Shown in pieces: positions 22,102 through 31,884 of a stretch of DNA of 64,000 bases. Under the pieces are notes generated by a model. It was not told the DNA's origin, searched no databases, and saw only the letters and a program-made list of their open reading frames with translations. The stretch is from Kangiella shandongensis (GTDB taxonomy: Bacteria > Pseudomonadota > Gammaproteobacteria > Enterobacterales > Kangiellaceae). Location of the stretch: positions 62,001 through 126,000 of the forward strand of contig NZ_JACNML010000001.1 in assembly GCF_020005365.1 (NCBI RefSeq). The letters are read 5' to 3'. Position 1 is the first letter of the stretch; each line of letters starts with the position of its first letter. Both the position numbers and the translations under genes were made by a program.

Positions 22102-24504
22102 TTAATGTGGTTGAATTTTGTTCTGTTCACCTTTTTCTGCTGATGCAGTTTCGGGTTTCGATTCAACCGGTTTACTGATAGGCTCAGGCAATCGCTCAAG
22201 AGCAATATCAATAACTTCGTCAATCCATTTCACAGCAATGATCTCAAGATCCTGCTTAATATTTTTAGGTATATCCTCGAGATTCCGTTCATTTTCTTTC
22301 GGGATAATCACCGTTTTTATTTCACCTCTGTGTGCTGCCAGAAGTTTTTCTTTAAGCCCACCGATCGGCAGAACTTCACCACGTAAGGTAATCTCCCCCG
22401 TCATAGCAACGTCTTTTCGCACCGGAATTTTAGTCAGGCTGGAAATCAGCGCCGTACACATACCGATACCCGCGCTCGGGCCATCTTTCGGCGTCGCACC
22501 TTCTGGTACGTGGATGTGCAGGTCTTTCTTCTCATAAAAGTCAGGTTCGATACCTAACGCTAAACAGCGGCTACGAACCACCGTCATTGCAGCCTGAATC
22601 GATTCTTTCATCACGTCACCAAGCTGACCAGTAAAGACCGTTTTGCCTTTGCCGTCCATAACCACGGATTCAATCGTCAATAATTCACCGCCAACCGAAG
22701 TCCAGGCAAGTCCAGTAACCTGGCCCACCTTATTACTCTCACCTGCGCGGCCATAATCAAAGCGTTGCACACCCAGATATTTATTGATGTTCTTTTCCGT
22801 AACCTTGACCGTTTTCTTAGCCTTTTTCGCTAACAGCTGCTCTTTGACCGTTTTACGGCAGACTTTCGATATCTCACGCTCCAGATTACGCACACCCGAT
22901 TCACGAGTGTAGTAACGGATAATACTACGAAGCGCATTATCAGACAGTTCCAGCTCGTTTGTCTTCAAACCAGCATTTTTAATCTGCTTCGGCAACAGGT
23001 ATCGCTTGGCGATCTCAACCTTTTCATCTTCGGTATAGCCCGGGATTCGAATAACTTCCATCCGATCCAGTAACGGTGCCGGAATATTCATGGAGTTCGA
23101 TGTTGCGATAAACATCACTTCTGACAGATCATAATCCACTTCTAAATAATGGTCACTGAAGGTATGGTTCTGCTCAGGGTCCAGCACCTCAAGCAATGCA
23201 GAAGAGGGATCGCCACGCATATCCATCGACATTTTATCGATCTCATCTAACAGAAATAACGGGTTCTTAACAGCAATCTTGCTCATGCGCTGCATAATCT
23301 TACCCGGCATCGCACCGATATAGGTACGACGGTGGCCACGGATTTCTGCTTCATCACGCACACCACCTAACGCCATACGAACATACTTTCGGCCTGTGGC
23401 ACGAGCAATCGACTGCCCTAATGACGTTTTACCCACACCAGGGGGACCGACAAGGCACAATACCGGTCCTTTCAGCTTCTTCACTCGTTGCTGCACGGCC
23501 AGGTATTCGAGAATACGATCTTTGATCTTCTCTAAACCATAATGATCTTCATCCAACACTTCTTCGGCTTTAACCAGATCATGTTTTACTCGACTACGCT
23601 TTTTCCAGGGCACTCCCAGCAGCCAGTCAATGTAACCACGAACGACGGTCGCTTCGGCCGACATTGGTGACATCATTTTTAATTTTTTCAGCTCAGCTTC
23701 GGCCTTCTCCTTGGCTTCTTTTGTCATGCCAGCTTCTTCGATCTTCTTCGCTAACTCTTCATGCTCTGAAGCCGTTTCCTCACCATCACCCAGCTCTTTC
23801 TGAATCGCTTTTATTTGCTCATTCAGATAATACTCACGCTGATTCTTTTCCATCTGGTTCTTAACGCGACCACGAATCCGTTTTTCCACTTCCAGCAGAT
23901 CCATTTCGCTTTCCATCTTGCTCATCAAGTGCTCAAGACGCTCTACCACAGACTCCATTTGCAGTATTTCCTGCTTGTCTTCAATATTCAAAGACATATG
24001 GGCAGCGATGCTGTCCGCCAGACGGCTTGGATTTTCAATGCCGGACAAAGTAGTCAGAATCTCACTCGGAATTTTCTTATTGAGCTTCACATACTTGTCA
24101 AAGCTATTCAGTGCCGCTCGAGCTAAAGCATCTTCCTGATCTTCCTGTCCCGAGACATTTTCTATCAGGCTCACCTCAGAGATAAACATGGGATCCGTTT
24201 CTACAAAACGCTCAACTTTTGCTCGCTGTACACCTTCTACCAAAACTTTGACATTCCCATCAGGGAGTTTCAGCATCTGTAAAATTGTTGCCACACAGCC
24301 GTGATCAAATACTTGATCAGTATCCGGCATATCTTCAGTCGCTTCCTTCTGTGCGACTAACATGACTTGCTTATCACCGTTTGTCGCTTCCTCCAATGCT
24401 TGAATCGACTTTTCTCGCCCAACAAACAGCGGAATCACCATGTGTGGGAAGACCACAACATCGCGTAACGGTAATAATGGAAGTTGTTTAGTTTCTAATG
24501 GCAT
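22102..24504 (-). CDS. lon: ATP-dependent Lon protease
   Basis: 800 aa, near the usual 780-810. An N-terminal LON substrate domain ([23 protein letters not shown]) is followed by the AAA+ domain with Walker [10 protein letters not shown] (about residue 350), Walker [10 protein letters not shown], and the C-terminal protease domain with catalytic Ser in PKDGPSAG (about 680) and catalytic Lys in [10 protein letters not shown]. Lon degrades misfolded and regulatory proteins in the cytosol. It follows clpX by 89 bp, which contain a 9-bp stem hairpin. The C-terminal tail ([21 protein letters not shown]) is a charged extension. Confidence 0.97.
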
Positions 24505-24550
24505 GAACTCTACTTTCCTGGGATTTATAAAAATCTACTCAGTGGGAAAT

Positions 24551-24574
24551 GGTTACAGCGAACAAGCTGTAACC
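24551..24574 (-). other. Hairpin in the clpX-lon intergenic gap
   Basis: GGTTACAGC (24551-24559) and GCTGTAACC (24566-24574) form a perfect 9-bp stem with a 6-nt loop, 20 bp beyond the clpX stop. No U-tract follows on the minus strand, so it may be a weak terminator, a 3' stabiliser of clpX mRNA or part of the lon leader. Confidence 0.5.
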
Positions 24575-24593
24575 ACAACATAATTTATATGTA

Positions 24594-25862
24594 CTACTCA
24601 GATGCAGCCTTGGACTGGTTGTCGTAAATCAATAAAGGCTCTGCTTCACCCTTTACAACAGCACCGTCAATACAGACTTTACTGACCCCTTCTAATGAAG
24701 GTAAGTCATACATGGTGTCTAATAAAATTTCTTCAAGGATGGAACGCAATCCTCGAGCTCCTGTACGGCGAGCCATCGCTTTTTGTGCAATCGCTGCTAA
24801 CGCATCTTTACGGAACTCCAGCTCAACATTCTCCAAAGAGAATAACTTGCTGTACTGCTTAGTCAGGGCATTTTTGGGCTCGGTTAAAATACGCACTAAC
24901 GCCGTTTCATCCAGCTCTCTTAAAGTCGTCACAATCGGTAAACGACCAATAAATTCAGGAATTAAACCAAATTTAACCAGATCATCAGGCTCCACCATCT
25001 TCAGCATTTCACCGACTTTTGCGCTATCGTTAACTTCTTTAACATCAGCACCGAAGCCGATACCGCCTTTCTCGGTACGCTCCTGGATCACTTTTTCAAG
25101 TCCTGCGAATGCACCACCACAGACAAACAGGATATTGCCGGTATTTACCTGCAAGAACTCTTGCTGCGGATGCTTACGACCGCCCTGAGGTGGAACTGAT
25201 GCCACAGTACCTTCGATAAGTTTTAATAAAGCCTGCTGTACGCCTTCACCGGAAACATCGCGCGTAATAGACGGATTATCTGACTTGCGGGAAATCTTAT
25301 CGATCTCATCAATATAGACGATACCGCGCTCAGCCTTTTCCACGTCATAATCACACTTTTGTAAAAGCTTCTGTATGATGTTTTCAACGTCTTCACCGAC
25401 ATAACCGGCTTCCGTTAAAGTAGTCGCATCAGCCATGGTGAAAGGAACGTCCAACATACGAGCCAACGTTTCCGCCAGTAACGTTTTACCACTACCTGTT
25501 GGGCCGATCAGCAATATGTTACTTTTACCTAACTCGACGTCCTGGTGTTCACTGGAATGAGGTTCACTTTCAAGGCGCTTATAATGATTATAAACCGCGA
25601 CAGAAAGCACTTTTTTTGCTTCTTCCTGACCAATCACATACTGCTCTAAAAACTCAGCAATCTCCTTTGGTTTCGGTAATTTTTCCTTAGCTTCTTTCGA
25701 CGCAATCTCTTGAATTTCTTCAATAATAATGTCATTGCATAAATCCACACACTCATTACAGATAAATACGCGAGGACCTGCAATCAGCTTTTTTACTTCG
25801 TGCTGACTTTTGCCACAAAACGAACAATAGAGTGTTTTATCGTCGGAGTTCTCGTTACTCAT
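24594..25862 (-). CDS. clpX: ATP-dependent Clp protease ATP-binding subunit ClpX
   Basis: 422 aa, standard length. The N-terminal C4 zinc-binding domain has Cys at residues 13, 16, 35 and 38 (CSFC, CNEC). AAA+ motifs are Walker A GPTGSGKT (about 120), Walker B VYIDEIDK, pore loop GYVGED, and the IGF loop needed to dock on ClpP (GGIGFGA, residues near 270). It unfolds tagged substrates and feeds them to ClpP. In this genome clpX is separated from clpP by about 4 kb carrying two unrelated genes, so it needs its own promoter upstream of 25862; a GAGGT Shine-Dalgarno is present. Confidence 0.97.
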
Positions 25863-26204
25863 TTTCTACCTCAAGCAAACGCCTTGAATCAAATTATCGG
25901 CGTGGCTTTAATTAATGCTTTCTATACTCTGCTAAGCAGGCGTTTCCATAAAGAGGAAATGAGGCTGATTCGTGATATTTCAAGTATGAAATGAAGGTTT
26001 GCCGCTACATTAACCTCAGAAATCACCTCTTTATAGGTTAACAGTACCAAATATAGCCCAGCAACAAAAGCAAAAAGCCGCGCAAAGCCAGAACAGCTCT
26101 AAATTTTACACATTTTGTCCTATGTCTAGCACGCTGTGGTTAACGGTCTCAAACCTCGATTATGCTATACTGTTGACAGGTTCAAATTGCTGCCGAGACG
26201 CCCA
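25863..26204. other. Divergent intergenic region, clpX / phosphatase-kinase gene
   Basis: 342 bp with no convincing gene. It must hold the clpX promoter (minus) and the promoter for the plus-strand fusion gene. A -10-like TATACT lies at 26166-26171, 34 bp before that gene's ATG. TTAATTAA near 25910 is a small palindrome. No heat-shock-type -35/-10 pair for clpX is obvious to me. Confidence 0.4.
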
Positions 26205-28085
26205 ATGAAACATTTCAAGGTACCGCTTTCTGCCATTCTTCTCTTCCTGCTGGCCATGCTGGTGATACCGTCTGAAGGCGAAGCCAAAAGAACGGTAGCA
26301 GTAACCGATGTTCACGGCGCTTACCACTCACTGATTAACGTTCTGCAGCGAAGCAAGGTCATTGACAAAGACTTGGACTGGAGCGGGCAGACCGATGTTC
26401 TGATCAGTATTGGCGATAACCTGGACCGAGGCCCTGACTCCAGAAGAGTACTGGATCTGCTCATGCGGCTTGAGCGGGAAGCTCACAAAGCAGGTGATCG
26501 GGTCGAAGTTCTACTGGGCAACCATGAAGCCATGGTGATAATGTCCGATCTGCGCTATGTTTCGAAAGATGAGTATGCCGCTTTTATCCCCGAGGAATCA
26601 GAACAGTCTCGACAGTCAGTTTACGAGGACTTCCTCGATTACTCAGATCGTGACGATAACGCCGGTAGCCTGCAAGCTTTCAATAAAATGTATCCTCCTG
26701 GTTATTTCGGACTGGTCGCCAGCTTCGCTCCCGATGGCCGCTATGGGCGTTGGTTATTGCAGAACAACGTTGTTACAACCTTGGACAACCGCACTTATGT
26801 ACACGGCGGCATCTCAAAACAACTATTAGAGCTGAATTTAAACGAAGAAGAACTGAACCAAAGGTTTCGTCAAGACCTATCCGACTACGCCACTTTATAT
26901 CATCAGTTAATTGACGCAGGATTATTCAAGCATTATTTCAACAAACTGGATCGAAAAGAGGTTGCTACAGCGCTGGTCGAGGGGAAAATACGCTCTCGCG
27001 CTCTCAACAAACCCAGTACAGTCAAAAAAGCACGTCGCTTTCTCAAGGTTGCCGACTCCCTGATGCTAACCACCTTTGGGCCTATCTGGTATCGGGGTAA
27101 TATCTATTGCCACATCTACTCAGAGCGACAAACGCTAGACAATGCATTACAACGCTTCCACTCTAAACAAATTTTGGTGGGACATACTCCCGACAAAAGC
27201 CGCAAGGTACGCTCGCGGTTTGATAATCGGCTCATTCTGCTGGATACCGGTATGTTGCGCAGCCATTACCATGGCCATCCCAGTGCAGTCATTATCGAAA
27301 ATGACGCATTACAAGTGCTTAACATCGACGACTCCAGCAATACCGCCCCCATTCCGGACCCCACTCGCAAACCGTTATACCCCGATGGACATAACGATGA
27401 CTATCTGAACAATTTTTTTAACCGTGCGGAAGTAGTCGAGCAGAAGGAGTTAGAGAATTTCTACAGCAAACCATTAAAACTGACTTTTAAAAAAGGTGAC
27501 GTCGAGCACCATGCAATTTTTAAGTATTTAGACAGTGATCCCAATATGGAGAAGCAAGACTGGGAAAGACGACTGGGCAACCTCGCCGATCGCTATATTT
27601 ACGACTTGGCGGCTTATAAGCTGGATCGGATGCTTGGCCTTTACATGGTTCCCTTCACTATGGAGTACCGACTGAATGATCGTCCCGGGGTTATTCAGTA
27701 CTGGGTTGAAGACTCGATCACACGAACAGAGCTGATCGAACAGGATAAATCACTATATAGCTTCTGCTCTACTGATGAGGCTGAAGATATCATGCATATT
27801 TTTGATTGGCTGATATACAACGAAGACCGAAATACTGGTAATCGCTTATACAGTAAAGACAACGGTTTTTTGTGGTTGATTGATCATACTCGAGCCTTTC
27901 GAGTTAAAAGCAAGCTACCCGAATACGAAAGAACTGCTCCAGACTACCTGTCCCCAGAATATAAACTCCAACTTCAGTCATTGGATCGAGCGCAGCTTAT
28001 GGCCGAATTAAAAGACTACCTACACCCAAGACAGATTATCTCTCTATTAACACGTCGAGATAAAATTCTTAAGCGTCTTCACTAG
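26205..28085 (+). CDS. Secreted PPP-type phosphatase fused to a PI3K/HipA/FAM20-like kinase domain
   Basis: 626 aa from ATG at 26205; an in-frame GTG at 26136 would bury the signal peptide (hydrophobic core residues 7-22, cleavage near GEA-KR), so the ATG is preferred. Residues about 28-370 form a calcineurin-like/PPP metallophosphatase related to Shewanella-like phosphatases: DVHG (35-38), GDNLDRG (70-76), GNHE (105-108), HGG (200-202), GH (326-327). Residues about 420-626 resemble the PI3K/HipA/FAM20 atypical kinase fold: a candidate ATP-binding Lys in HAIFK (440), LAAYKLDRMLGLYMVP, catalytic-loop EDRNTGN (540-546) and metal-binding LIDH (Asp560). It therefore may both remove and add phosphate outside the cytoplasm. 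It sits between clpP and clpX, convergent with a translocase-like gene whose end it overlaps by 17 bp. The kinase call is inference from motifs. Confidence 0.75.
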   Translation: MKHFKVPLSAILLFLLAMLVIPSEGEAKRTVAVTDVHGAYHSLINVLQRSKVIDKDLDWSGQTDVLISIGDNLDRGPDSRRVLDLLMRLEREAHKAGDRVEVLLGNHEAMVIMSDLRYVSKDEYAAFIPEESEQSRQSVYEDFLDYSDRDDNAGSLQAFNKMYPPGYFGLVASFAPDGRYGRWLLQNNVVTTLDNRTYVHGGISKQLLELNLNEEELNQRFRQDLSDYATLYHQLIDAGLFKHYFNKLDRKEVATALVEGKIRSRALNKPSTVKKARRFLKVADSLMLTTFGPIWYRGNIYCHIYSERQTLDNALQRFHSKQILVGHTPDKSRKVRSRFDNRLILLDTGMLRSHYHGHPSAVIIENDALQVLNIDDSSNTAPIPDPTRKPLYPDGHNDDYLNNFFNRAEVVEQKELENFYSKPLKLTFKKGDVEHHAIFKYLDSDPNMEKQDWERRLGNLADRYIYDLAAYKLDRMLGLYMVPFTMEYRLNDRPGVIQYWVEDSITRTELIEQDKSLYSFCSTDEAEDIMHIFDWLIYNEDRNTGNRLYSKDNGFLWLIDHTRAFRVKSKLPEYERTAPDYLSPEYKLQLQSLDRAQLMAELKDYLHPRQIISLLTRRDKILKRLH

Positions 28086-29718
28086 TTCCAGGCTTTATTT
28101 TGACTTCCCATGCAGTGCTGACTTCAAAGCCCGCAAAGTCTTTAGCTACCAGCTCGAGCTGCAACTTTTGCTCAGTCTCAGGCGGAGGCTCAAACATCAC
28201 AGTTAAAGCCTCATCATCGAATTGACACCAGGCAGGAAGCTGCTCTCCATTAGCTTCCCTTAATTGATAACGAATCATATCTCCAAGGTCCGGCTCAACG
28301 AAAGTGTTTTCCGGAATTGAAATCGTACTTTGCTTTCCAGCCGTAAGCGATTCAGGTTTTAGCGAAACAGCAAGCACAGGCGGACGCCCTTCCGCTTGCT
28401 CTTTATCTCGACGTTTATAATGCCGGCGAATAGCCAAAGCAGTCCAGCAACAAGTGGCTGCCAATATGGCATTAAAGGTTATAAACTCAAGCGTGCCCAA
28501 ACCAAATACATTAACCCCAATGGCGACACTGGCACCATACATTAGATCGCCAAACCGGTAAAAAAAAGTATCCGTGGTGTTCTTACTTAAATATTTTTCG
28601 TCCCTGGACACCGGCAAGAACAAAGCATGACGACTGGTATTTTGAATCGAGTAGTTAACGCTATTTTCGGCAATGAGCGCCCACTTAACGACCCCAAAAA
28701 AAGGAAAGAACAGTATCAGACTATAATTAATCATCATGACAAAGGGCAAAATAAAGATTGAAGCACCAACCCCTATCCACCGAAACAGACGGGCAACAAC
28801 AAAAAGCTGTAACAACAACCCTATCAGAGTAAACCAGGCAATATAGTCGGAATAAAAATCCGTCATAAAGAGTTGCTCTTCGTAACTACCTCTTGGACCC
28901 ACTTGCTGTGCCTGGTTAATGACAAACTTAGCCAGTACATACTCTCCGACAGAGTTAATCCAGTTATAAAGCAAGATAAATAGCGCGATTAATAATAAGT
29001 AACGACTCTGGAAAAAAAGCGAAAAACCTTGCCACCATTGGTGTCGCGTTCCTAATGCCTTACTGTCTGAAATAGCTCGAGAAGTTTTTGGTACCGACTG
29101 ATAACTTAATTTAACCAGACAGTTCACAACAAACAGTAGCGTTGCTGACAATAGCACCAGTCCCGTTACGCCGAATACGGGGAAAAGCGCGCCTCCCAAC
29201 TTCGCCCCAACCCAAGCCCCCATGGTGCCGCCTATGGCAATGGCTGCAAATAACCGTTTACCACTCATTGAATTAAAACAGTCGGCACAGAATGCCCAGT
29301 ACAAAGCGACCATGGTGACGCTGAAAACGCCCAGCCAGATATAGAACGCTATACCAATGGCTAAACCAAGATATTCAGCAACTGCAAAAAGTAAAAGGTG
29401 ACTTACAAAAAACAATAAAACTCGTCTTAAAAACAACGACTTGTCTTTATGATCAGAAAACTTGTAGTAATAACGACTGAATAATGGAATAACCGCTAGC
29501 AGAATGGTTGCTTGTGCGGCAGTGGTATAGCTCTTAAGTTCTGCACTGCCATCAGAAAGGATCAGAGGATCTCGTATAACTTTCAGCAAATAGTACGCCG
29601 TCATCAAGATGAAGAGACTTACGAACATCAATACGACGCTGCGTCCTTCTCCAGCTCGGATCCAGACGAAGTGCGCCAACAGGCGTTCTATCCAGTTATA
29701 TCGGCGGCGTTCTTCCAT
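28069..29718 (-). CDS. ATP/ADP-translocase-like (TLC/MFS) membrane protein with C-terminal CADG-like domain
   Basis: 549 aa. Twelve or so hydrophobic segments cover about residues 22-430. The N-terminal block RAGEGRSVVLMFVSLFILMTAYYLLKVIRDPLIL matches the bacterial ADP/ATP carrier-like/MFS family related to Rickettsia/chlamydial nucleotide transporters. The last about 100 residues form a soluble domain with IRYQLREANGEQLPAWCQFD and LELVAKDFAGFEVSTAWEVKI, the pattern of cadherin-like CADG/putative-Ig domains (G..LPxWL.FD, AxDxxG). That fusion is unusual. The substrate is unknown; free-living bacteria carry such proteins without proven nucleotide transport. It converges on and overlaps the phosphatase-kinase gene and lies between clpP and clpX. 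Confidence 0.75.
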   Translation of the reverse strand: MEERRRYNWIERLLAHFVWIRAGEGRSVVLMFVSLFILMTAYYLLKVIRDPLILSDGSAELKSYTTAAQATILLAVIPLFSRYYYKFSDHKDKSLFLRRVLLFFVSHLLLFAVAEYLGLAIGIAFYIWLGVFSVTMVALYWAFCADCFNSMSGKRLFAAIAIGGTMGAWVGAKLGGALFPVFGVTGLVLLSATLLFVVNCLVKLSYQSVPKTSRAISDSKALGTRHQWWQGFSLFFQSRYLLLIALFILLYNWINSVGEYVLAKFVINQAQQVGPRGSYEEQLFMTDFYSDYIAWFTLIGLLLQLFVVARLFRWIGVGASIFILPFVMMINYSLILFFPFFGVVKWALIAENSVNYSIQNTSRHALFLPVSRDEKYLSKNTTDTFFYRFGDLMYGASVAIGVNVFGLGTLEFITFNAILAATCCWTALAIRRHYKRRDKEQAEGRPPVLAVSLKPESLTAGKQSTISIPENTFVEPDLGDMIRYQLREANGEQLPAWCQFDDEALTVMFEPPPETEQKLQLELVAKDFAGFEVSTAWEVKIKPGTSEDA

Positions 29719-29906
29719 CGCGCCCTCCTATGATTTATAGGGATTACTGCGACAAGCCTAAGAGTACGAACCCGCTAAAGATTAATGTAGCGTAATATCA
29801 AGTGTTATACAGTAAAAAATAAGGAAATTATTAATTCAGGAGAGGGGTTGTACTAACTATCAGGAAGATACCACCCATGAAACGCTGCTCACAGGTGGTT
29901 TTGGTA

Positions 29907-30518
29907 TTACTTTCGAGAATTGATAATAGAGTCAACCAATCCGTACTCGATAGCTTCTTCAGCTGAAAGGAAGTTATCTCTGTCGGTATCTTTTTCAACT
30001 TGCTCAATCGGTTTGTCACAGTGATGTGACAAAATGCCATTCAGACGTTTTTTCATTTCACTGATTTCCTGAGCATGAATCGCGATATCGGACGCCTGTC
30101 CCTGAAAGCCACCCAGCGGCTGGTGAATCATCATGCGCGAATTAGGTAAGCAATGACGCTTACCAGAAGCACCACCAGCGAGCAACAATGCCCCCATGCT
30201 AGCCGCCTGACCGACACAAACCGTCGAAACATCGGGACGAATAAATTGCATGGTATCGTAAATCCCCATACCCGCGGTCACAACACCACCTGGAGAGTTA
30301 ATATACAAATAAATATCTTTATCAGGGTTATCCGATTCCAAAAATAACATCTGCGCAATAATCGAATTGGCCATATGGTCTTCAACCGGACCAACACAGA
30401 AAATCACTCGCTCTTTTAACAAGCGAGAGTAAATATCGTAAGAGCGCTCGCCACGTGACGTTTGCTCTACAACCATTGGAATTAAAGCACTGTTGATGGG
30501 TTGCTCAATTTTGCTCAT
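29907..30518 (-). CDS. clpP: ATP-dependent Clp protease proteolytic subunit ClpP
   Basis: 203 aa. The serine-protease triad is visible: Ser107 in [11 protein letters not shown], His132 in MMIHQPLGG and Asp181 in [20 protein letters not shown]. An N-terminal propeptide of about 10 residues is likely. ClpP forms the double heptameric chamber used by ClpX/ClpA. It lies 73 bp after tig with a strong terminator in that gap, so it probably has a separate promoter or depends on read-through. clpX is not directly downstream as it is in most relatives. Confidence 0.97.
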
Positions 30519-30540
30519 ATCTAGACGATTCCTTATTCCA

Positions 30541-30569
30541 AAAAAAAGCGGATAAAATCCGCTTTTTTA
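30541..30569 (-). terminator. Rho-independent terminator between tig and clpP
   Basis: AAAAAAGCGGAT and ATCCGCTTTTTT enclose an AAA loop; the stem is followed by T on both strands. It lies 22 bp past the tig stop and 22 bp before the clpP start, directly in the 73-bp gap. Confidence 0.85.
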
Positions 30570-30591
30570 TACTGTGACTGAAAGGCTAAAC

Positions 30592-31884
30592 TTACTGTTT
30601 ATTAGTGTTTAGCATCTCGTCAAACTTAACGGCTTTCTCCGTTACTTTAGCTTTTTCCAGCACCAAGTCAACTACAGTATCTTCCAATACCAGTGACTCT
30701 ACTTCACGTAAGCGCTGAGGGTCGCCATAGTACCAGTCGATAACTTCTTTCGGCTCTTCGTAAACCGAGGCTAAGTCTTCAACTTGTGCACGAACTTTGT
30801 CTTCATCCGCTTTCAACTCTTCTGATTTAATGATTTCAGCAACCACTAAACCCAGTTTTACACGGCGTGAAGCCTGTTCTTCAAATAAGCTCGCAGGAAG
30901 ATCTGGTGTTTCACCTTTAGGAGCATTCATTTGCTGCGCCATCTCTTGACGCATACGATCGATTTCTTGATCAATCATTGCCTTTGGCATATCAAATTCA
31001 TGCTTCTCTACTAACTGATCCATCACTGCACCTTTGATGCGTGATTTGATAGCGTTGCGAAGCTCACGCTCCATATTCTTTTTAACGTCAGCTTTAAGTG
31101 CAGCCAGGTCATCAGCACCTAATTGCTCGGCTAAATCTGTTAGTGTTGGCAGCTCTTTCTTGTTAACAGCGTGTACGTGTGTCTCAAAAGTTGCTTCCTT
31201 ACCCTTAAGATCTTCTACATGATAGTCTTCAGGAAAGGTTACTTTAACTTCAACATCACTGTCCGCAGAAACGCCAACCAGTTGGTCCTCAAAGCCCGGG
31301 ATCATGTTGCCAGCGCCAATTTCCAATGGGAATTGTTTCGCTTCACCACCTTGGAATGCTTCACCGTCAACAAAACCTTTAAAGTCGATAACTACCTGAT
31401 CACCTTCTTTCGACTTACGCTTTACTTCAGCCCAAGATGCGCGCTGCTCACGTAGCGTATCCATCATTTTAGACAGGTCGTCGTCAGACACTTCTGATGT
31501 TGGCTTTTCGATTTCAAGCTTAGCCAGATCAGAGACTTCAACTTCCGGATAAACTTCAAAGGTTGCTGAGAACTTCAGATTCTCACCATCTTTGTTTTCG
31601 ATTAATTCAAGCTGTGGATAACCAGCAGGAGTCAATTTCTCTTGCTGAATTGCTTCGAAATAATGACGTTGCATAATTTCGCCAAGAACTTCCTGACGAA
31701 CAGAAGCGCCATAGCGCTTTTTTACAACTTTGAAAGGAACTTTGCCTGGACGGAAACCGTTCATCTTCACGGTGCGCGTCATTTCTTGTAGGCGTTTTTG
31801 TACCGCGCCGTCAATGTTCTCGGCAGGTACATCGATAACTAACTTTCTTTCTAAACCGTTATTGGCTTCAACTGAAACTTGCAT
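30592..31884 (-). CDS. tig: Trigger factor, ribosome-associated chaperone
   Basis: 430 aa, standard length. The N-terminal ribosome-binding domain contains the signature GFRPGKVPFKVVKKRYG (residues about 43-59). The FKBP-type prolyl isomerase domain follows (about 150-245: EGDQVVIDFKGFVDGEAFQGG, GAGNMIPGFEDQLVG) and the C-terminal helical arms form the chaperone cradle. It binds nascent chains at the exit tunnel. The gene follows the four-tRNA cluster as in Pseudomonas. A purine-rich CGGAGATCAGCG precedes the ATG as Shine-Dalgarno. Confidence 0.97.
   Translation of the reverse strand: MQVSVEANNGLERKLVIDVPAENIDGAVQKRLQEMTRTVKMNGFRPGKVPFKVVKKRYGASVRQEVLGEIMQRHYFEAIQQEKLTPAGYPQLELIENKDGENLKFSATFEVYPEVEVSDLAKLEIEKPTSEVSDDDLSKMMDTLREQRASWAEVKRKSKEGDQVVIDFKGFVDGEAFQGGEAKQFPLEIGAGNMIPGFEDQLVGVSADSDVEVKVTFPEDYHVEDLKGKEATFETHVHAVNKKELPTLTDLAEQLGADDLAALKADVKKNMERELRNAIKSRIKGAVMDQLVEKHEFDMPKAMIDQEIDRMRQEMAQQMNAPKGETPDLPASLFEEQASRRVKLGLVVAEIIKSEELKADEDKVRAQVEDLASVYEEPKEVIDWYYGDPQRLREVESLVLEDTVVDLVLEKAKVTEKAVKFDEMLNTNKQ

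Follow-up and report, generated by a model that had tools for sequence, protein, structure and literature searches.

How could a kinase work outside the cytoplasm, and why would it share one polypeptide with a phosphatase? These questions are raised by an open reading frame in the 64,000-nucleotide stretch of Kangiella shandongensis DNA that we analyzed (the window), which belongs to a genome of 2.8 Mb. The frame (26205..28085, + strand) is open from an ATG at 26205 to a stop codon ending at 28085, has an alternative, longer GTG start at 26136, and, judged by its motifs and profile matches, encodes an exported PPP phosphatase-kinase fusion of 626 aa. Residues 1 to 27 (26205..26285, +) were read by eye as a signal peptide, since the N terminus is hydrophobic and ends in SEGEA followed by KR. 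Comparable leaders occur in the homologues, some of which (L010, L015, and L018) carry a lipobox-like cysteine there. A sequence-only reading made earlier had placed both domains behind a signal peptide, and our by-eye reading supports export.

By profile matches and motif residues, the N-terminal half (approximately residues 28 to 380; 26286..27344, +) is a Shewanella-like PPP phosphatase whose activity is predicted. DVHG lies at residues 35 to 38, GDNLDRG at 70 to 76, GNHE at 105 to 108, HGG at 200 to 202, and GH at 326 to 327; the full PPP motif set read there earlier is thus borne out. The Pfam model Metallophos matched the fusion protein with an E value of 2.8e-12 and the Shewanella PTP structure 2zbm matched it at 1.4e-29, and a profile of 27 family members, searched against the PDB, found Shewanella PTP at 8.8e-50, together with FAM20B at 1.3e-9 and FAM20A at 1.1e-8. 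Judged by these domain profile E values, the motifs of the fusion exceed chance expectation. Moreover, the PPP metal-binding set D-H-D-N-H-H is present in the window protein and is kept in 88 of 92 full-length members of the family.

The C-terminal domain (residues 408 to 626; 27426..28082, +) was assigned as FAM20/TIGR03843-like from kinase profiles and NCBIfam. Its motifs, K440, EDRNTGN at 540 to 546, and LIDH at 558 to 561, were likewise found where the sequence-only reading had put them. K440 (27522..27524, +) is, by alignment, the presumed ATP-binding lysine; D541 of the N-x-D-R motif (27825..27827, +) and D560 of IDH (27882..27884, +) are, by alignment and profile, the presumed catalytic and metal-binding aspartates. 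Among the Pfam models, PI3_PI4_kinase (3.9e-5) and HipA_2 (6.1e-4) matched the fusion protein below their curated cut-offs, and Fam20C reached an E value of 0.068, with 13.3 bits against a curated cut-off of 26.8. At an E value of 0.1, Fam20C was matched by 18 of 27 members (best, 0.0013) and HipA_2 by 23 of the 27 full proteins. TIGR03843 (SCO1664) was the sole NCBIfam family matched by the kinase domains, and all 21 kinase-intact members matched it (best, 1.6e-20); the window fusion protein did so at 1.6e-9, below the family cut-off, its kinase domain scoring 42.3 bits against the curated 172.4. When a kinase-only profile of 21 members was compared with the PDB, it found FAM20A (2.2e-9), FAM20B (1.9e-8), and FAM20C (6.1e-7). 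Because PI4K2B reached only 0.33 and no HipA structure was among the nine matches at an E value of 1, FAM20 is, by sequence, the nearest solved relative. Of the HipA/PI3K/FAM20 type proposed earlier, the FAM20-like part is supported by profile.

Two AlphaFold models, each built from three sequences (window, L021, and L022), were of low confidence (pLDDT, 43.5 and 52.2). The second (pLDDT, 52.2; pTM, 0.44) has a kinase-like order of strands and helices, as far as a low-confidence model can be read, and Foldseek on this same model gave nothing at 0.001, with 48 of the 50 listed matches being kinase entries by title. From the pattern of triad loss described below, the kinase is probably real and active in the window protein and a pseudokinase in many relatives. 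Alternatively, the kinase fold might carry out other envelope chemistry, for example, AMPylation or glutamylation. Kinase-like folds with non-kinase chemistry do exist, as in SidJ and SelO. In the portion of PMC7948968 available, "bacteri" occurs in the reference list only, where one title names a polyglutamylating bacterial pseudokinase. However, K440, N-x-D-R, and IDH match the FAM20 pattern, and a PPP phosphatase partner would suit phosphomonoesters, which makes other chemistry quite improbable.

We then considered how widely the fusion occurs. Fusion matches, with phosphatase-only matches counted, were present in 27 of 61 related genomes. Matches to the kinase-domain profile were found in 26 of 394 genomes of the order, 3 of 369 in a class sample, and 1 of 398 in a phylum sample, each count including the window's own genome, as well as in 60 of 196 genomes of the order to which G564 belongs (the second order). 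The second-order search gave 70 match rows, of which 61 were fetched in 60 regions, 2 (G564) had already been fetched, and 7 were left out (G1273:C115, G1158, G1223, G1232, G1216:C15, G1098, and G1110). The resulting alignment holds 95 sequences, 34 from the first set and 61 from the 60 second-set regions; 92 are full-length fusions, from 80 genomes of one class, so the search for the same architecture elsewhere that had been suggested earlier was answered positively. Most reading frames span 580 to 800 aa, and the shorter ones lie mainly at contig ends. The viral contigs scanned held no relative, and the plasmids scanned yielded three records only, with partial metallophosphoesterase matches.

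The catalytic state of these proteins varied in a characteristic way. According to the automatic alignment, with a gap scored as a loss, the triad K440/D541/D560 is intact in 42 of 95 sequences, lacks two residues in 18, lacks all three in 35, and lacks a single residue in none. The sequence-only reading had tied the kinase assignment to conservation of this triad; it is not conserved in 53 of the 95, yet it is lost by twos and threes and never singly. Such all-or-none behavior is what a catalytic set would show if it were either maintained as a whole or freed from constraint. Counted in the same way, both motif sets are retained by 36 of the 92 full-length proteins; in 52 only the phosphatase set is kept and in 4 only that of the kinase, and none lacks both. 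The kinase-only state is clear for L027, L028, and L029 and hangs on a single residue in L196, which should be read with caution. Thus, the phospho-cycling by one enzyme that had been suggested earlier lacks support as a general rule, 56 of 92 members keeping the motif set of just one activity.

In G021 and G031, two fusion copies flank the carrier gene described below; the first copy is phosphatase intact with a ruined triad, and the second is the reverse, as though the two activities had been naturally divided between the tandem copies. Of the two copies in G026, one retains both sets and the other just the kinase set. A full-length tree places separate kinase losses in G008, in G011/G013/G016, in G564/G728, and in the first tandem copies, and phosphatase loss once. 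In a tree of the phosphatase domain, the branching among G016, G018, and G011/G013 is not settled, and the kinase state changes at least six times in all. A further locus in G067 (L109, contig C48, 7924-8817) holds a kinase domain without a phosphatase, with the triad intact; a carrier of the fusion-linked clade (L149) lies elsewhere in that genome.

What, then, keeps a dead half in place? Two cysteines, C302 on the phosphatase side (27108..27110, +) and C521 on the kinase side (27765..27767, +), occur in every full-length protein (92 of 92), regardless of active-site state. No other cysteine occurs in the mature region of 26 of 27 first-set proteins (L002 has a single extra one, and any further ones fall in the leader) or of 52 of 60 second-set proteins. 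Because the pair is universal and the protein is exported, we predict a disulfide between the two domains, which would explain why inactive halves are retained.

The second question, the source of nucleotide, led to the neighboring gene. At 28069..29718 (-), in convergent orientation to the fusion gene and with a 17-base overlap, lies a gene for a membrane protein of 549 aa that is NTT (ADP/ATP carrier)-like by profile comparison with solved carriers. A carrier profile with paralogues matched the solved ADP/ATP carriers 9j3n (2.6e-20) and 9j3j (8.9e-13), the adjacent set alone matched 9j3n at 1.1e-9, and profile positions 19 to 440 align with the solved NTT. Beyond this region, residues 446 to 537 (28108..28383, -) form an Ig/dystroglycan-like C-terminal domain, for which He_PIG gave 5.5e-4, below its cut-off, and dystroglycan 3e-6 with a family profile. 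Fourteen of the 18 adjacent carriers have this domain, which is missing from K. aquimarina-type carriers (449 to 457 aa); similar domains are arrayed in very large proteins of G013 and G033.

The surroundings of the pair differ among genera. In Kangiella (window 22102-31884; L117, L118, L033, and L034), the fusion gene, with the carrier where present, sits between clpX and clpP and interrupts an otherwise usual lon-clpX-clpP-tig block. The two genes are convergent in Kangiella, L035, L038, and L044 and on the same strand in L036, L037, L040, L041, L043, and L111 to L113; gene order thus varies across genera, and the fusion-carrier pair is kept together. Lon, ClpX, ClpP, and trigger factor were set aside as functional partners, since in other genera these neighbors change and the carrier persists. 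L034 departs from this order, its next genes being one that looks pilin-like by eye and one of 1,110 aa. Trees set the clade of the carrier apart from paralogues of the same genomes, which are never found beside the fusion gene.

The residues required for ADP/ATP exchange by AtNTT1 are given as K155, E245, E385, and K527 in the consulted portions of PMC10654386 and PMC3306366. In the carrier, whose residues we numbered by hand, only E385 is clearly kept (as E259); K155 is replaced by Q69 and E245 by G130, and K527 falls on R388 or D391, depending on the alignment followed. With one of four clear, a canonical ADP/ATP exchanger is unsupported by signature residues, and nucleotide is a putative substrate of the carrier. 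The same replacements would be in keeping with a carrier that serves the kinase by moving its acceptor or phosphorylated product (a sugar, lipid, or nucleotide-sugar), the triphosphate coming from another source, and so would the matches of adjacent carriers to MFS_1 (7 of 18) and to Pfam TLC at an E value of 0.001 (5 of 18, the window carrier having no match) and the extra Ig-like domain. Yet the profiles find ADP/ATP carriers as their best solved relatives, and an exported kinase would be left without a known triphosphate source. We thus regard an acceptor or product carrier as unlikely.

To relate the carrier to the two activities, we compared its presence with kinase state. Among 20 Kangiella genomes, the carrier adjoins the fusion gene in all 10 that are kinase intact, while the four kinase-dead ones (G008, G011, G013, and G016) have no adjacent carrier and only a distant paralogue elsewhere, the fusion gene directly facing clpP in G008, G011, and G013. 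The six without a fusion gene, two of them incomplete (55% and 86%), also lack the carrier. In the second order, whose members other than G564 were new to the analysis when tested, the carrier clade was present in 11 of 15 kinase-intact genomes (two by partial genes) versus 2 of 39 kinase-dead ones and was adjacent in 5 of 15 versus 1 of 39, an adjacency count affected by the position of L187, L189, and L195 at contig ends. Over 82 genomes, the clade occurred in 32 of 37 kinase-intact genomes, two of these positives (G1136 and G1144) resting on partial genes, versus 2 of 45 kinase-dead genomes (Fisher test, 3e-15, a statistic that ignores kinship). These data indicate that intact kinase halves are largely confined to genomes that retain the carrier clade.

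The exceptions run in both directions. Five kinase-intact genomes are without the carrier, namely, G1134, G1167, G1123, G039, and G1161; these are 79, 80, 81, 89, and 92% complete, respectively, and some of the absences may be assembly gaps. Two kinase-dead genomes have it (G1146, adjacent, and G1178), and a broad count that takes in a divergent, long-branch subgroup lacking the Ig-like domain adds G728, G1191, and G1235, making 5 of 45. Universal adjacency was rejected, as the carrier is not adjacent in 11 of the 37 kinase-intact genomes, of which 10 belong to the second order. The 82-genome test was run outside G067, G1158, G1223, G1232, G1098, and G1110; G067 was left out for its kinase domain without phosphatase and a 96-residue fragment at a contig end, and G1223 and G1232 hold a carrier of the clade with kinase states unread, so that they could add exceptions. 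G1123 and G1241 were counted but stand outside the tree for want of a phosphatase domain.

Because phosphatase-only genomes mostly do without the carrier, it seems to serve the kinase half. The same observation tells against nucleotide salvage, whereby the phosphatase would trim extracellular nucleotides for the carrier to import: the carrier is mostly absent where the kinase is dead, even though the phosphatase motifs are intact. Salvage could draw on a match between the phosphatase and a bis(5'-nucleosyl)-tetraphosphatase model (4.5e-8, under that model's cut-off) and on characterized NTTs having been studied for uptake, as stated in the consulted part of PMC5381601, but we consider it very improbable.

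A different objection is that the kinase fold serves mainly in structural or regulatory support of the phosphatase, with the carrier correlation reflecting shared descent. The 52 of 92 members that have no kinase triad, yet retain the domain and its cysteine, could be so explained, and supported independent contrasts number only four: the carrier follows the kinase in two to three, shows no difference in one to two, and opposes it in at most one, in a few pairings (sign test, median P of 0.25). With four contrasts, this test is unable to reach 0.05. On the other hand, both motif sets are kept in 36 members, L027 to L029 retain the triad beside a ruined phosphatase set, and G067 has a kinase domain alone. 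Furthermore, within Kangiella, kinase decay accompanies carrier absence in G008 and in G011/G013/G016, between which lie the intact G017 and G018. A mainly structural or regulatory role thus appears improbable.

The reading that we consider just probable is that of an extracytoplasmic kinase/phosphatase whose kinase is supplied with nucleotide by the NTT-type carrier. The fusion would be an exported bifunctional enzyme, periplasmic or, in some relatives, a lipoprotein, whose N-terminal PPP metallophosphatase takes phosphate off and whose C-terminal FAM20-like kinase puts phosphate on, both probably acting on one shared envelope protein or glycan. The C302-C521 disulfide would hold the domains together, each fold being kept even after its activity is lost. 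The periplasm produces no ATP, and an exported kinase would for that reason work where a dedicated carrier is present. The NTT-type carrier, here the convergent neighbor, would carry nucleoside triphosphate through the inner membrane, with the diphosphate presumably moving the other way.

Paralogous NTT-like carriers were also seen near NAD(P)-type enzymes, in 10 of 28 paralogue loci (flanks, about 1.5 kb or less), a count made by hand with L073 and Ig-only matches excluded. The neighbors are epimerase-like in L066, L068, L069, L142, L143, and L147 and aldo/keto-reductase-like in L139, L262, L271, and L273; all six epimerase-like proteins have a twin-arginine-like leader, and the Pfam model Epimerase was run on two members of the family. 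Two of the carrier loci, L250 (G1232) and L249 (G1111), encode identical proteins in genomes of different families, possibly through draft-genome contamination. These paralogue loci hint at a broader link of NTT-like carriers with exported nucleotide-dependent enzymes. A wider proposal is that, in some Gram-negative bacteria, the periplasm is fed with ATP: nucleotide exported by an NTT-type carrier would reach a FAM20-like kinase/PPP phosphatase, stapled by a disulfide, for the reversible phosphorylation of envelope molecules, and, generally, NTT-like carriers of free-living bacteria would supply exported nucleotide-dependent enzymes with cofactors. In this full extent it is possible but doubtful. 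If true, the ATP-fed periplasm would parallel, in bacteria, the ATP-supplied Golgi kinases.

New relative to the sequence-only reading are the paired conserved cysteines, the tandem copies that split the activities, and the carrier inherited along with the fusion. In titles and abstract openings of the literature on FAM20-like bacterial kinases, phosphatase-kinase fusions, periplasmic ATP, and NTTs, a scope with most subscription journals and all preprints outside it, the pairing was not found, and in the portion of PMC12599244 available, "fam20" occurs in the reference list only. Our data suggest a bacterial way of running phosphorylation outside the cytoplasm. If this is true, it would give ATP-dependent phosphorylation a route into the Gram-negative envelope, and the active, half-dead, and split enzymes would form a natural series in which the mutual dependence of a kinase and the phosphatase opposing it could be tested.

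Each part of the system has a known relative from which it departs. FAM20A, FAM20B, and FAM20C (5wrr, 5xom, and 5yh3) are exported as well, are similar by profile in the N-lobe and the FD-LI-N-x-DR ... D region, and likewise include intact and pseudokinase members side by side (FAM20A is titled a pseudokinase). Unlike them, the fusion is bacterial, is joined to a PPP phosphatase, has IDH where FAM20A has LDN, and has two conserved cysteines, whereas FAM20 kinases carry a disulfide set of their own. TIGR03843 (the SCO1664 family) and HipA_2 are matched by most or all members examined, but the window domain falls far under the TIGR03843 cut-off. The Shewanella PTP and Shewanella-like PPP structures (2z72, 2zbm, and 1v73) align with the fusion over the PPP motifs and their flanks; they are, however, chains of 336 to 342 residues without a kinase domain and, in the aligned segment, have no cysteine at the place of C302. 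The solved NTTs (9j3n, ADP,ATP carrier protein 1, and the chloroplastic 9j3j) share profile positions 19 to 440 and the E385 equivalent with the carrier, which differs in its replaced K155 and E245 equivalents, its uncertain K527 equivalent, and the Ig-like domain it shares with most adjacent carriers. Kangiella, moreover, is a free-living genus. According to the consulted part of PMC5381601, characterized NTTs come from parasites and plastids, and those of free-living bacteria are widespread but uncharacterized; the present locus would, if the favored reading is true, offer the latter a candidate job. Finally, the AceK-type bifunctional kinase/phosphatase also combines opposing activities in a single polypeptide, but AceK is cytoplasmic, is built of other folds, and has no carrier.
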